A stretch of 64,000 nucleotides of DNA. Source: Candidatus Bacteroides intestinavium (GTDB lineage: Bacteria > Bacteroidota > Bacteroidia > Bacteroidales > Bacteroidaceae). The stretch is from assembly GCA_019118325.1 (NCBI GenBank), contig DWZE01000085.1:1-64000 (forward strand), read 5' to 3'. This document shows positions 18,634 through 57,432 of this stretch, piece by piece. Every line of letters starts with the position of its first letter. The stretch's first letter is position 1. The notes under the pieces are model-generated. The model saw only the letters and a list, made by a program, of their open reading frames with translations. It did not search any database and was not told where the DNA came from. Both the position numbers and the translations under genes were made by a program.

Positions 18634-18699
18634 GATGTCGCTGCCCGTGCTCCGCGATATCTGCGCCCGTGCTCCGCGATATCTCCGGACAACCGTCCG
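18634..18699. repeat. Array A: GATATC-centred palindrome, 22-bp period (units at 18634, 18656, 18678)
   Basis: Units gatgtcgctgcccgtgctccgc / gatatctgcgcccgtgctccgc / gatatctccggacaaccgtccg. Confidence 0.85.
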
Positions 18700-27366: not shown

Positions 27367-27653
27367 TTTAGGCGCGGATTACGCGGATTTCACGTATTCT
27401 ATATAATACCCGTTGGCGGAATTAATTGGGGCATGAAAGCCTACGAGCGGGGATATCTCTGGGCCAGGGCGGAGATATCTGCGGACAAGGACGGAGATAT
27501 CTGCGGACAAAAGCGGAGATATCTACCCACAAAGCCGCCCAAGGGACTGACAGATAAAGTGCATATTGTGGTCATACAACGGGTTATATAATCAATGAAA
27601 TCAGGTTTTATAATGAAAGACAATCCGTGAAATCCGCGTAATCCGCGCCTAAA
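27367..27653. repeat. perfect 27-nt inverted repeat enclosing GATATC array B
   Basis: 27367-27393 tttaggcgcggattacgcggatttcac is the exact reverse complement of 27627-27653. Confidence 0.9.
27452..27539. repeat. Array B: GATATC-centred palindrome, 22-bp period (27452, 27474, 27496, 27518)
   Basis: Units gatatctctgggccagggcgga / gatatctgcggacaaggacgga / gatatctgcggacaaaagcgga / gatatctacccacaaagccgcc. Confidence 0.92.
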
Positions 27654-27722
27654 GACCCGGCATGTCGGATGCCCGTCCCGCAAAAATCCGCCCCGCCCCT
27701 TGCACCATTCGCCGAAAAGCCT

Positions 27723-27730
27723 TACCTTTG
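27723..27730 (+). promoter_or_regulatory. Bacteroides -7 promoter element before the cobalamin riboswitch
   Basis: TACCTTTG matches TAnnTTTG. Confidence 0.65.
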
Positions 27731-27739
27731 CCGCGTTTT

Positions 27740-27918
27740 GTTCCGCATCGGTCCGTCCGGGCCGTCGGATGAAAAGGGAATCGGGTGAAAATCCCGGACA
27801 GTCCCGCTGCTGTGAGTTCCTGCCAAAGGGTGTGTCAAGAACACCTGCATGCCACTGTCCTGCCGCGAGCGGAGGATGGGAAGGCGACATACCTTGGGAG
27901 CGAGTCAGAAGACCTGCA
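27740..27918 (+). promoter_or_regulatory. cobalamin riboswitch
   Basis: gggtgaaaatcccggacagtcccgctgctgtgag (B12 box region), gccactg, gggaaggc, gcgagtcagaagacctgc; upstream of a TonB receptor. Confidence 0.96.
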
Positions 27919-28007
27919 AAACAAAGTCGAAAAACCATCCGTTCGAGGAAAGCGGCTGGCAACACATTTTTTATATTATATCTAAGAAAACCGTCTTGGA
28001 TTGGCTT

Positions 28008-35621: not shown

Positions 35622-35709
35622 GATATCCCCGCGCCTGGGCGGAGATATCTCCGTCCGTGTCCGCGGATATCCCCGCCCAAGCCTGCGGATATCTCCGTCC
35701 GTGGCTCAT
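35622..35709. repeat. Array C: GATATC-centred palindrome, 22-bp period (35622, 35644, 35666, 35688)
   Basis: Units gatatccccgcgcctgggcgga / gatatctccgtccgtgtccgcg / gatatccccgcccaagcctgcg / gatatctccgtccgtggctcat. Confidence 0.92.
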
Positions 35710-36940: not shown

Positions 36941-37057
36941 AGTGATTAGTGATTAGTGGTGAGTGATTAGTGGCCGTGATTAGCGTTTTGTGATAAGTGA
37001 TTGGCCAAGCGTTCATGCCGCAGGGTACTAATCACTAAACACTAATCACTAACCCCT
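36941..37057. repeat. heptamer (GTGATTA/CTAATCA) repeat hairpin between macB ATPase and permease genes
   Basis: agtgattagtgattagtggtgagtgattagt ... actaatcactaaacactaatcactaacccctaatca. Confidence 0.85.
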
Positions 37058-37059
37058 AA

Positions 37060-37806
37060 TCAGTCGTCAATGTTCCTGGGCAGGGCGGCCAGCGCCTCGG
37101 CGGCCGAGAGGATGCGGGGGTTCTCCCGGTCCTCGATGACGTGGCCGTCGCGCAGGCGGATGTTCCGGCTGCTGTATTGGGCGATGTCGGGGTTGTGGGT
37201 GACGAAGATGATGGTGCGTCCCTCGCGGTGCAGCTTCTGGAAGAGGACGAGAATCTCGAAGGACGTGCGCGTGTCCAGGTTGCCCGTGGCCTCGTCCGCC
37301 AGGATGACCGCCGGGTTGTTGACCAGGGCGCGGGCGATGGCCACGCGCTGCATCTGTCCGCCGGACATCTGGTTGGACTTGTGCTCCAGGCGGTCGCCCA
37401 GGCCGACGGCCACCAGCGCGTCCACGGCGCGGCGGCGGCGTTCGGCGGCGCTGACCGAGGGGTTGTACATCAGGGGCAGCTCGACGTTCTCGACGGCCGT
37501 GGTCTTCGGCAGCAGGTTGTAGTTCTGGAAGACGAAGCCGATCTTGCGGTTGCGCAGGATGGCGCGCTGGGGCTTCGACATGGTGCGCACGCTCGTGCCG
37601 TCCAGCAGGTATTCGCCGCTCGTGGGGGTGTCGAGGCAGCCCAGCGTGTTGAGCAGGGTCGATTTGCCCGAACCGGAGGTGCCCATGATGGTGACGAACT
37701 CGCCCTCGCGGATGGAGAACGACACGCCGCGCAGGGCGTGAACGGTTTCGTTGCCCACGATGAAGTTGCGCTTGATATCGTGTAGTTCGATGACGGTTTT
37801 GCTCAT
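37060..37806 (-). CDS. MacB-type ABC transporter ATP-binding protein
   Basis: Walker A MGTSGSGKST, signature MSGGQMQRVAIARAL, Walker B ILADEATG; start moved from 37914 to MSKTVIELHDIKRNF. Confidence 0.95.
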   Translation of the reverse strand: MSKTVIELHDIKRNFIVGNETVHALRGVSFSIREGEFVTIMGTSGSGKSTLLNTLGCLDTPTSGEYLLDGTSVRTMSKPQRAILRNRKIGFVFQNYNLLPKTTAVENVELPLMYNPSVSAAERRRRAVDALVAVGLGDRLEHKSNQMSGGQMQRVAIARALVNNPAVILADEATGNLDTRTSFEILVLFQKLHREGRTIIFVTHNPDIAQYSSRNIRLRDGHVIEDRENPRILSAAEALAALPRNIDD

Positions 37807-38085: not shown

Positions 38086-38215
38086 AAACGCGCCGTATTG
38101 TCGTTGAAAATGCGCAGTATCGCCGTTAAAAATGCGCAGTATCGCGTTTTCAACGCCGCTATAGTGTCGTTGAAACTGCGTCAAGGCGCGTTTGTAACGA
38201 CAATACGTCGCGTTT
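38086..38215. repeat. Second 22-bp-period array (GCGCAGTATCGCCGTTAAAAAT-like), bracketed by 20-bp inverted repeats
   Basis: Units at 38090, 38112, 38134 and 38178 (gcgccgtattgtcgttgaaaat / gcgcagtatcgccgttaaaaat / ...); 38086-38105 vs 38196-38215 reverse complement 19/20. Confidence 0.8.
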
Positions 38216-47386: not shown

Positions 47387-48439
47387 TTAGCGGAAACGGA
47401 ACGTGACCCATACGCCTTTGTGATCCGTGGGCCATACACCTTGATGGGGCAGGAAGGGGTCCTGCGTCTGTTCTTCCATCCGTTGGTTCCGGCAGATGCT
47501 GCCACGCGGCCCGTAGATAAGGGCTTCCGTGGCCTCCAGTCCCGGATAGGGATGGTAAAATACGTAGTCGATGCGATCCCTTTCGTCGGATTTCGGCGCC
47601 CAGGTCAGCCGTTCGACGGGTACCCGAGGATTGTCGGCGGGGAAAGTGAAGCCCGGGCAGGCCAGCACGTCCGGGTGACAGGCACGGTAGGCGTCCACAA
47701 ACCCGGCATTGTCCAGCAGCAGCGGTACGGTCCAGGGGATGATGAGTCCGTTGTGGTCATACAGGTCTTTGGTCTCGCGGATCCAGTCCAGGTGCGACGG
47801 CTCGTTGAAGTCTCCGCCCAAGATGACGATATCGCCCTCGGCCACGTCCTTGCGCGCCTCCTCGATGAAGCGGCGGATGGCGTCGTCACGCAGCGAGGCG
47901 TCGTTCACTTGCAGGACTTCGAGGACGGTCTGCGGGATGGGAATCTCTTCCCACGTGGAACCGTCATATCCGCGCACGTTATAATAGGCGTCGTTCAGGT
48001 AGTCCAGATGGGCGGTGTAGACGGCAATCTTGCGCCCGCATACCGTGCTTTCCAGCTTGTAGATGCTGCCGTGGTCATCCTTCTCGGGAAAGACGGTCAG
48101 CGAATCCGTGATGGGATGTCGGCTCAGCAGGCCGGAATCATAGCTGTAGAAGGAATAATACGTTTCACCCCGTTCGGCCAGCGAGCGGACGATGCGGTCG
48201 CAGAAGCGGGTGTCGTGGTAGTTGCGCACTTCGCTGAAGGTCACTAAGTCTGGTTTCAGTCGGGCTATTTCGTCGGCAATGGCCTCGTAGCCGCCCTCCA
48301 CCATTGTGCCTTCCTGCCAGATATTCCACTGGAGCACGCTGAAACTGTCCTGTTCTTTCTGTACGTTCGTTTCGTTGCCGGCAAAGGCAGGAATGGCTGC
48401 CATCATCAGCAGGCTGCAAAATAGAGCATATAAATTCAT
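47387..48439 (-). CDS. endonuclease/exonuclease/phosphatase family protein (secreted)
   Basis: Signal peptide; LQWNIWQEG, VILGGDFNEPSHLDW, DRIDYVFYH, PTDHKGVWVTF. Confidence 0.93.
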   Translation of the reverse strand: MNLYALFCSLLMMAAIPAFAGNETNVQKEQDSFSVLQWNIWQEGTMVEGGYEAIADEIARLKPDLVTFSEVRNYHDTRFCDRIVRSLAERGETYYSFYSYDSGLLSRHPITDSLTVFPEKDDHGSIYKLESTVCGRKIAVYTAHLDYLNDAYYNVRGYDGSTWEEIPIPQTVLEVLQVNDASLRDDAIRRFIEEARKDVAEGDIVILGGDFNEPSHLDWIRETKDLYDHNGLIIPWTVPLLLDNAGFVDAYRACHPDVLACPGFTFPADNPRVPVERLTWAPKSDERDRIDYVFYHPYPGLEATEALIYGPRGSICRNQRMEEQTQDPFLPHQGVWPTDHKGVWVTFRFR

Positions 48440-48522
48440 GGTAAGTGTTTAATTCTCTCGTTGTTATAGTCTGTATTAAATCCGCCTGCGGCTTTCTGGC
48501 AGGTGGGGTATTCGTAGTTCAT
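48436..48522 (-). CDS. candidate 28-aa leader ORF overlapping the start codon of the 47387-48439 gene (ATGA)
   Basis: ATG AAC TAC GAA TAC CCC ACC TGC ... CAC TTA CCA TGA = MNYEYPTCQKAAGGFNTDYNNERIKHLP*. Confidence 0.35.
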   Translation of the reverse strand: MNYEYPTCQKAAGGFNTDYNNERIKHLP

Positions 48523-48567
48523 CAAGCGTGAAAGCCGCACGGTCCGGCAACCATACATTCACCTGCC
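48487..48567 (-). promoter_or_regulatory. structured 5' UTR with interleaved (pseudoknot-topology) helices
   Basis: Minus-strand RNA order: GGCAGGUG (48567-48560), UGCGGCUUUC (48539-48530), CACCUGCC (48505-48498), GAAAGCCGCA (48496-48487); 1 with 3 and 2 with 4 are perfectly complementary. Confidence 0.5.
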
Positions 48568-48603
48568 GCAACCGGTAACGCCCTCAGTCTTTTCTTAAGA
48601 CCG

Positions 48604-48611
48604 CGCAAAGG
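48604..48611 (-). promoter_or_regulatory. -7 promoter element for the 47387-48439 gene
   Basis: caaaggta on plus = TACCTTTG on minus. Confidence 0.6.
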
Positions 48612-48714
48612 TACACATTCTTCCGAAACAGGCCAACAAATCCGAAACAAATGACAGGACAAGCGTCCGGAAGGATCGGTCTGGAAACTGTTCGGTATTG
48701 TGCCCACCGGCGAA

Positions 48715-48802
48715 GATATCTCCGTATACGGGCGCAGATATCTCCGTGCACGGGCAAAGATATCTCCGTGTGCGGGCGGAGATATCTCCGTGTGCCCACG
48801 AA
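48715..48802. repeat. Array D: GATATC-centred palindrome, 22-bp period (48715, 48737, 48759, 48781)
   Basis: Units gatatctccgtatacgggcgca / gatatctccgtgcacgggcaaa / gatatctccgtgtgcgggcgga / gatatctccgtgtgcccacgaa. Confidence 0.95.
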
Positions 48803-48869
48803 GAAAATAGCAGTCCATAAGGCTGAAATCCCGCAAAAATCCGTACCTTTGTCCCTAAAATCATCGACA

Positions 48870-49409
48870 ATGAACCAGATACAGATAAAAGACAAGCGTT
48901 TTGCCGTCTCCATTCCCGAGGCGGACATCCTGAAGGAAGTGGACCGCGTGGCCGCAGAAATCAACCGTGACCTGGCCGGCAAGAATCCGCTGTTTCTCAG
49001 TGTGCTGAACGGCTCATTCATGTTCACCGCCGACCTGATGAAGCGCATCACCATTCCTTGTGAAGTGTCGTTCGTCAAGCTGGCATCCTACCAGGGCGTG
49101 ACCTCGACGGGCAAAGTGAAGGAGGTCATCGGCATCACCGAGGACCTGACGGACCGCACCATCGTCATCGTGGAGGACATCGTGGACACGGGCTTGACGA
49201 TGCAACGCCTCCTCGAAACATTGGGCACGAGACGTCCAAAGGAAATCCACATTGCCACGCTACTGGTGAAGCCGGAGAAACTGAAAGTGGACCTCGACAT
49301 CAAATACGTGGCCATGCAGATTCCCAACGATTTCATCGTGGGCTATGGACTGGACTACGACGGGCTGGGTCGAAACTACAAGGACATTTATACAGTGGTT
49401 AATGATTAA
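48870..49409 (+). CDS. hpt: hypoxanthine phosphoribosyltransferase
   Basis: LFLSVLNGSFMFTADLMKRI; VIVEDIVDTGLTM; start moved from 48651 to MNQIQIKDKRF. Confidence 0.95.
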   Translation: MNQIQIKDKRFAVSIPEADILKEVDRVAAEINRDLAGKNPLFLSVLNGSFMFTADLMKRITIPCEVSFVKLASYQGVTSTGKVKEVIGITEDLTDRTIVIVEDIVDTGLTMQRLLETLGTRRPKEIHIATLLVKPEKLKVDLDIKYVAMQIPNDFIVGYGLDYDGLGRNYKDIYTVVND

Positions 49410-49512
49410 TGGTAAGTGGTTAATGGCAAGGATGTTCCACACGCAGCCCATTTTACCATTAACCATTAATCATTAATCATTAACCATTAATCATTAACCA
49501 TTTACCATTAAT
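49396..49512. repeat. heptamer (CATTAAT/CATTAAC) repeat hairpin between hpt and adk
   Basis: gtggttaatgattaatggtaagtggttaatgg ... ccattaaccattaatcattaatcattaaccattaatcattaacca. Confidence 0.88.
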
Positions 49513-57300: not shown

Positions 57301-57312
57301 GTCCCGGTTGAA

Positions 57313-57432
57313 CCCCACGCGCGGGCTACTGTAAACACCCACGCGTGGGGTACAAAGACACCCCACGCGTGGGGTATGATGGTACCCCACGCGTGACCCC
57401 TGATGATACCCCACGCGTGGGGTCTAAAACCC
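57313..57432. repeat. ACGCGT-centred palindrome array (ACCCCACGCGTGGGGT), exact 24-bp period, five units
   Basis: Unit starts 57313, 57337, 57361, 57385, 57409; units 3 and 5 are perfect 16-bp palindromes; 8-bp linkers vary. Confidence 0.95.

Follow-up and report, generated by a model that had tools for sequence, protein, structure and literature searches.

Array D belongs to a species-specific family of intergenic four-copy palindrome arrays with a 22-bp pitch in Candidatus Bacteroides intestinavium

Array D, a row of four GATATC-centered sites lying between two divergent promoters of Candidatus Bacteroides intestinavium, is a member of a species-specific intergenic family in which the symmetric site GNNCGNNGATATCNNCGNNC is present four times at a pitch of 22 bp (an arrangement referred to here as a tetrad). 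The window in which it was found is the whole stretch of DNA analyzed, 64,000 nucleotides in length; comparisons were extended to the remainder of the genome, to relatives within the genus, and to public genomes, plasmids and viral contigs.

Array D and its surroundings

The GATATC cores of array D occupy positions 48715-48720, 48737-48742, 48759-48764 and 48781-48786, with a pitch of 22 bp each time: the four positions and the exact spacing, which had been proposed from the letters alone (hereafter the sequence-only reading), were borne out both by pattern search and by TRF (period 22, 3.9 copies, 48709-48793). The copies read GCGAAGATATCTCCGT, GCGCAGATATCTCCGT, GCAAAGATATCTCCGT and GCGGAGATATCTCCGT, and only AGATATCTCCGT plus a leading GC is constant across them. 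The proposal also included a repeated 16-bp palindrome, GCGGAGATATCTCCGC. This palindrome is nowhere complete in array D (the last copy corresponds to 15/16 of it); what stands is the GATATC-centered core with constant AGATATCTCCGT. The features of the locus, and the related arrays of the window, are as follows.

48709..48793, no strand: array D, four GATATC-centered sites at 22-bp pitch, intergenic, without MITE ends
47387..48439, minus strand: Exo_endo_phos family gene, left neighbor of array D (PF03372, 4e-16)
48870..49409, plus strand: hpt, phosphoribosyltransferase, right neighbor of array D (PF00156, 3e-30)
48606..48613, minus strand: Bacteroidetes-type -7 box TACCTTTG of the left gene, outward-facing (pattern TANNTTTG)
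48844..48851, plus strand: -7 box TACCTTTG of hpt, outward-facing (pattern TANNTTTG)
35622..35693, no strand: sister array of four GATATC cores with 22-bp pitch, without MITE ends
27452..27523, no strand: sister array of four GATATC cores with 22-bp pitch, within a MITE
27408..27575, no strand: MITE around the 27452 array, with an intact left end (ACCCGTTGGCGGAATTA) and a degraded right end (CAACGGGT); right limit approximate
18634..18683, no strand: short sister array (locus 18656) with two exact GATATC cores and one mismatched core, GATGTC

The divergent layout described previously was thus recovered, with the Exo_endo_phos gene on the left and hpt on the right. Matches to the -7 box pattern number 43 in the window compared to 16.3 expected. 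Both flanking promoter boxes point away from array D, which lies outside both promoters. Array D might conceivably influence transcription of hpt or its neighbor, acting between the divergent promoters as, for example, an upstream operator or an insulator, but this is conjecture.

GATATC-N16-GATATC pairs occur 10 times in the window and 0.00 times in 100 dinucleotide shuffles. The claim that the same motif and period recur at three other loci was correct as to their existence (18656, 27452 and 35622), but the loci are not equivalent: the 27452 array, unlike array D, sits in a mobile MITE, the ends of which match IS1187 (IS982 family). The window holds further repeats: a palindromic tandem array at 57312-57423 (unit ACCCCACGCGTGGGGTACGAAGAC, period 24, 4.7 copies), a 22-bp tandem repeat unrelated to GATATC near an ORF start at 38086-38145 (AAATGCGCAGTATCGCCGTTAA, 2.7 copies), and intergenic heptad repeats of 7 bp (ACCATTA / ACTAATC, 5-9 copies) at 36941-37062 and 49455-49512. 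Over the Rfam gathering score the window yielded only a cobalamin riboswitch (27721-27935, upstream of a TonB-dependent receptor gene and ~200 bp from the MITE-borne 27452 array) and a small RNA of the FopS family (RF04319, 17190-17255), with nothing at array D.

GATATC arrays across the genome

The genome assembly (2.71 Mb, 138 contigs, 82% complete) contains 297 GATATC-N16-GATATC pairs and none of the reversed control. A sample of 0.97 Mb (83% coding) holds 50 arrays, and the number in the genome is estimated at roughly 110-140. Allowing one mismatch per core, 34 of the sampled arrays have four copies, eight have three, six have five and two have two. Distances between GATATC cores inside arrays are 22, 44 and 66 bp, no other spacing being used; with periods of 14-40 scanned, no other palindromic hexamer with a comparable period was found. 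The period is therefore conserved at other loci genome-wide, and the arrays are not scattered at random within coding sequence – two points on which the sequence-only reading could have failed – since 47 of the 48 arrays with at least three copies are intergenic (P about 1e-35). Of 44 arrays that could be classified, 19 fall in divergent gaps, compared to 11.9 expected by length (P 0.007), although the gene calls are from our own codon-usage caller and single cases may be wrong. Seventeen of these 19 arrays are at least 50 bp from both start codons. Genes adjoining the arrays are unrelated in function, and comparison of flanks across species gave no convincing candidate for a recurrent neighbor gene that might hint at a binding protein.

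Part of the family is carried by a mobile element. Shared flanks unite about 15 of the 50 sampled arrays (~30%), which reside in an element of about 180-184 bp bounded by 17-bp inverted ends (ACCCGTTGGCGGAATTA; 69 such ends in the genome) and by apparent target duplications of 7-9 bp (e.g. AATGACACT in locus L163 and GTGATTAGT in L030). Besides the 27452 array, ~14 of the sampled arrays have these terminal inverted repeats; none were found near array D. A second small flank group comprises three arrays, and 32 of the 50 share nothing with each other, array D among them: no flank homology of array D to the other sampled arrays was found. One fragment with a MITE end (L184) codes for the C-terminal part of a transposase of the IS982 family, with 97% identity to a copy on a Bacteroides faecis plasmid; the identification is via annotated plasmid copies, an NCBIfam search being without match. 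In addition, the left end of IS1187 on a B. fragilis plasmid is identical to the MITE left end. Given the ends shared with IS1187 and the IS982 transposase fragment, the subset is an IS982-type MITE carrying a tetrad.

The remaining arrays allow conservation to be compared along the unit. A relaxed scan, with up to five mismatches over the four cores, gave 34 arrays outside the MITE group, in 18 of which all four cores are perfect. Identity between non-MITE arrays is 0.91 in the core, 0.58 in the arms and 0.49 in the distal linker (chance 0.27); core conservation is partly ascertained, because the search used GATATC, though the relaxed scan let five mismatches through. A wider scan gave 30 arrays in all with zero mismatches and few intermediates before the background at other periods. 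With linkers diverged and cores intact in non-MITE arrays, something appears to keep the cores after insertion. The unit consensus is symmetric (GNNCGNNGATATCNNCGNNC), and arm complementarity is as column composition predicts, with no covariation beyond. The arms thus give no sign of an RNA stem being maintained, as is expected of half-sites read by a protein.

Arrays of the same pitch in other genomes

When public genomes were scanned for three GATATC spaced by 22 bp, the matches listed included many arrays in Prevotella pallens ATCC 700821 (CAGATATCTG), many in the roe-deer Bacteroidaceae MAG RGIG4776 (GAGGATATCCTC), and single ones in Parabacteroides, among others. The tetrads of P. pallens are dense, have conserved flanks, and show no preference for divergent gaps (0/23); such a preference is thus not general. 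In relatives within the genus the reversed control pattern scored high, because CTATAG arrays are present there at the same pitch. Two generic four-copy patterns applied to 151 genus genomes uncovered many 22-bp families, several per genome; genomes with at least 20 hits number 22 of 151 at period 22 vs. 2 at the period 21 control (one array can give several overlapping hits, so that these are not numbers of arrays). A random 0.985 Mb of other genus genomes contains 19 intergenic tandem repeats of period 22, compared to 2-3 for any other period. Families that were sampled are palindromic, mostly with about four copies, and their cores include CTATAG, TGTACA and GAAAC..GTTTC; some have five or more copies (e.g. 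in genome G034), and the genome of Ca. B. intestinavium also holds other 22-bp families (e.g. C60:39974 and C133:15114). Among one genome each from 86 other families of the order, nearly all gave 0-2 hits, and several of the higher ones were 11-bp repeats. High densities of 22-bp arrays therefore seem characteristic of Bacteroidaceae.

In the complete genome of one relative (G003), 60 exact four-copy arrays have TGTACA as their core. Among the ~50 of these that were listed there is no fifth copy or 22-bp-shifted double hit, and an identical 72-bp tetrad is found at several loci: together these observations indicate that the tetrad is copied as a unit. A search of plasmids for arrays gave no match. 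Viral contigs carry mostly 11-bp or unrelated repeats, with one five-copy array (L369) and one clear tetrad, an exact four-copy GCCTATAGGC in IMGVR_UViG_2802429456_000001 (L387:6539). A separate family with a 21-bp period (TATAATTGCAAGTTNNNTTTN; L311:9561, L295:5813, L265, L267 and L274) is present in several Bacteroides genomes; it adjoins a 22-bp array at some loci and is apparently part of a larger dispersed element.

Between sister species the core itself differs genome-wide. In two genomes with hpt 97% identical to that of Ca. B. intestinavium (G015 and G033) no GATATC pairs were found, and GTACNGGTAA pairs are present at 22-bp pitch (14 in G015, 15 in G033) with a shared linker, GCACGGGCGCAG, resembling linkers of the GATATC arrays such as GCACGGGCGCAGATATC. 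The comparison with G015 is via pattern hits and one locus, the gap upstream of hpt: where Ca. B. intestinavium has array D, G015 has a GTACNGGTAA 22-bp array, which can be an in-place replacement or an independent insertion. The region upstream of hpt contains, in another relative (G016), a weak 22-bp array that differs again in sequence (37 of 66); in G033, the 228 bp available there hold no array. Two further arrays of Ca. B. intestinavium share both flanking genes with differently worded arrays in other species (L174/L281 and L181/L267), and the gap that measures 330 bp with its array at L163 is empty, at 62 bp, in two relatives (L317 and L320). In the few syntenic gaps that allow a test, arrays do not keep their positions from one species to another, and in this they are unlike an essential regulatory site.

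Known repeat classes and explanations for the geometry

As the sequence-only reading supposed, the arrays fit no named repeat class: none of those tested matches them overall. CRISPR arrays were rejected on the basis of the 22-bp pitch and of linkers that are interrelated (direct identity 0.65), as opposed to unique spacers of ~30 bp. Like REP, BIME and REPIN sequences, the arrays are short intergenic palindromes of high copy number, fall into several species-specific families, and are copied as small units; they differ in having a fixed 22-bp pitch and four copies, and in lacking the GTAG/CGTC tag and, in the majority of array-rich genomes, a RAYT. This tag, at the palindrome foot, is a defining feature of REP elements (PMC3733652), and neither GTAG nor CGTC was found in GNNCGNNGATATCNNCGNNC. 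None of eight array-bearing genomes that are complete or nearly so (G003, G021, G030, G064, G112, G117, G157 and G172) contains a Y1_Tnp gene, on which ground the REP/BIME/RAYT assignment was rejected; G000 (Ca. B. intestinavium), G033 and G068 have one each. The sole such gene found in G000 (C2:7071-7418, minus strand) is ~1 kb from a GATATC array at C2:5946.

Searches of the open-access literature for 22-bp repeats of Bacteroidales led only to PINSR of Prevotella intermedia, though description elsewhere is possible. PINSR is intergenic and non-coding, with 177-184 copies, a 188-bp consensus, and no terminal inverted repeats or known function (PMC4755523). It resembles the arrays in being intergenic, similar in copy number and lineage-confined in the same family, and P. 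pallens, of that group, carries GATATC tetrads; it differs in being described as a 188-bp consensus, the paper mentioning neither 22-bp nor GATATC (PMC4755523). Compared by description only, PINSR may be the nearest named relative. IS982-family MITEs (IS1187-like) account for the ~15 of 50 sampled arrays carried by a ~184-bp element whose ends are those of IS1187; such ends are missing from most arrays, including array D, and in other species tetrads are not known to be linked to IS982.

The sequence-only reading raised the alternative that the palindromes act as RNA, forming in transcripts a row of hairpins or one long hairpin (a terminator, attenuator or RNase substrate). Array D does fold better than shuffles (-47.9 vs. 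-32.8 kcal/mol, z -4.35), 22 bp make two turns of an A-form helix, and an A-run and a T-run often flank the arrays of RGIG4776. However, good folding is expected of any palindrome repeat, and the arms lack covariation (single positions excepted) in the arrays of P. pallens and RGIG4776 as in those of Ca. B. intestinavium; further, linker 1 shows no more complementarity to linker 3 than is seen between arrays, no terminator-like site is present at array D, and both the location of array D outside the flanking promoters and the distance of divergent-gap arrays from start codons count against an RNA role. The RNA alternative is thereby weakened, and we consider it highly improbable. Two specific forms were rejected: a single long hairpin, since linker 1 is not complementary to linker 3, and an intrinsic terminator, since 48440-48900 contains no GC stem plus T run.

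It is also improbable that the arrays are chromosome-organization sites, dispersed to fold or mark the chromosome in the manner of those of Noc, SlmA or MatP. The ~110-140 dispersed sites would suit such a role, and in the sample of Ca. B. intestinavium they are more evenly placed than chance predicts (CV 0.54 vs. 0.83, P 0.005; gaps below 5 kb 5% vs. 39%), but recombination purging close repeats would give even spacing too, and the 48 listed TGTACA arrays of G003 are spaced as random (CV 0.90, P 0.30) without significant large-scale bias (KS P 0.27). The strongest competing explanation is that the arrays are purely selfish, dispersed repeats doing nothing for the host, in which the tetrad would be the minimal substrate of a transposase or of repair-coupled copying. 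The enzyme would require the four-by-22 shape, and differences between species would reflect turnover of enzyme families. This accords with whole tetrads identical at many loci, with the MITE-borne subset (its target duplications and IS1187-like ends), with the gap that is empty in two relatives, and with several families per genome. Against it stand the cores left intact where linkers have diverged, the 32 of 50 arrays without shared flanks or ends, and a dedicated transposase that was looked for and not found; we judge it rather unlikely.

The explanation we favor, at close to an even chance, is that the tetrad is read by a cooperative dimeric protein, which keeps the geometry as the units spread and the recognized sequence drifts with it. 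A dimer would bind each palindrome, and four dimers would bind cooperatively on one helix face, about two turns apart, keeping the geometry fixed. Tetrads would spread as whole units, some in IS982-type MITEs and others by another route; the recognized sequence would drift along with the protein, leaving close species with different cores. A dimeric protein on one face of the DNA, which the sequence-only reading suggested, remains putative, and is compatible with the symmetric consensus, the two-turn pitch, and a core more conserved (0.91) than arms and linkers (0.49-0.58). Arrays of ~22-bp protein-binding sites are known from iterons and from the ends of Tn7 and Mu, where several sites follow one another at intervals of about two helical turns and are bound cooperatively. 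The sites in those systems repeat in direct orientation and adjoin a replication or transposase gene, whereas tetrads are made of palindromes and lie dispersed, with unrelated genes as neighbors. More tentatively, we propose as a possibility that the class is family-wide and defined by geometry, not sequence, the wording of the site being replaced genome-wide between sister species as a fast-evolving protein drives concerted turnover.

If the arrays are selfish, they would constitute a large undescribed class of bacterial interspersed repeats, affecting assembly, annotation and intergenic evolution across the genus. If instead a protein reads the geometry, the arrays would point to an undescribed cooperative DNA-binding system in Bacteroidaceae, a dominant gut family, with tens to more than 100 sites per genome and rapid change in specificity – dynamics that would be comparable to those of eukaryotic centromere and hotspot systems.
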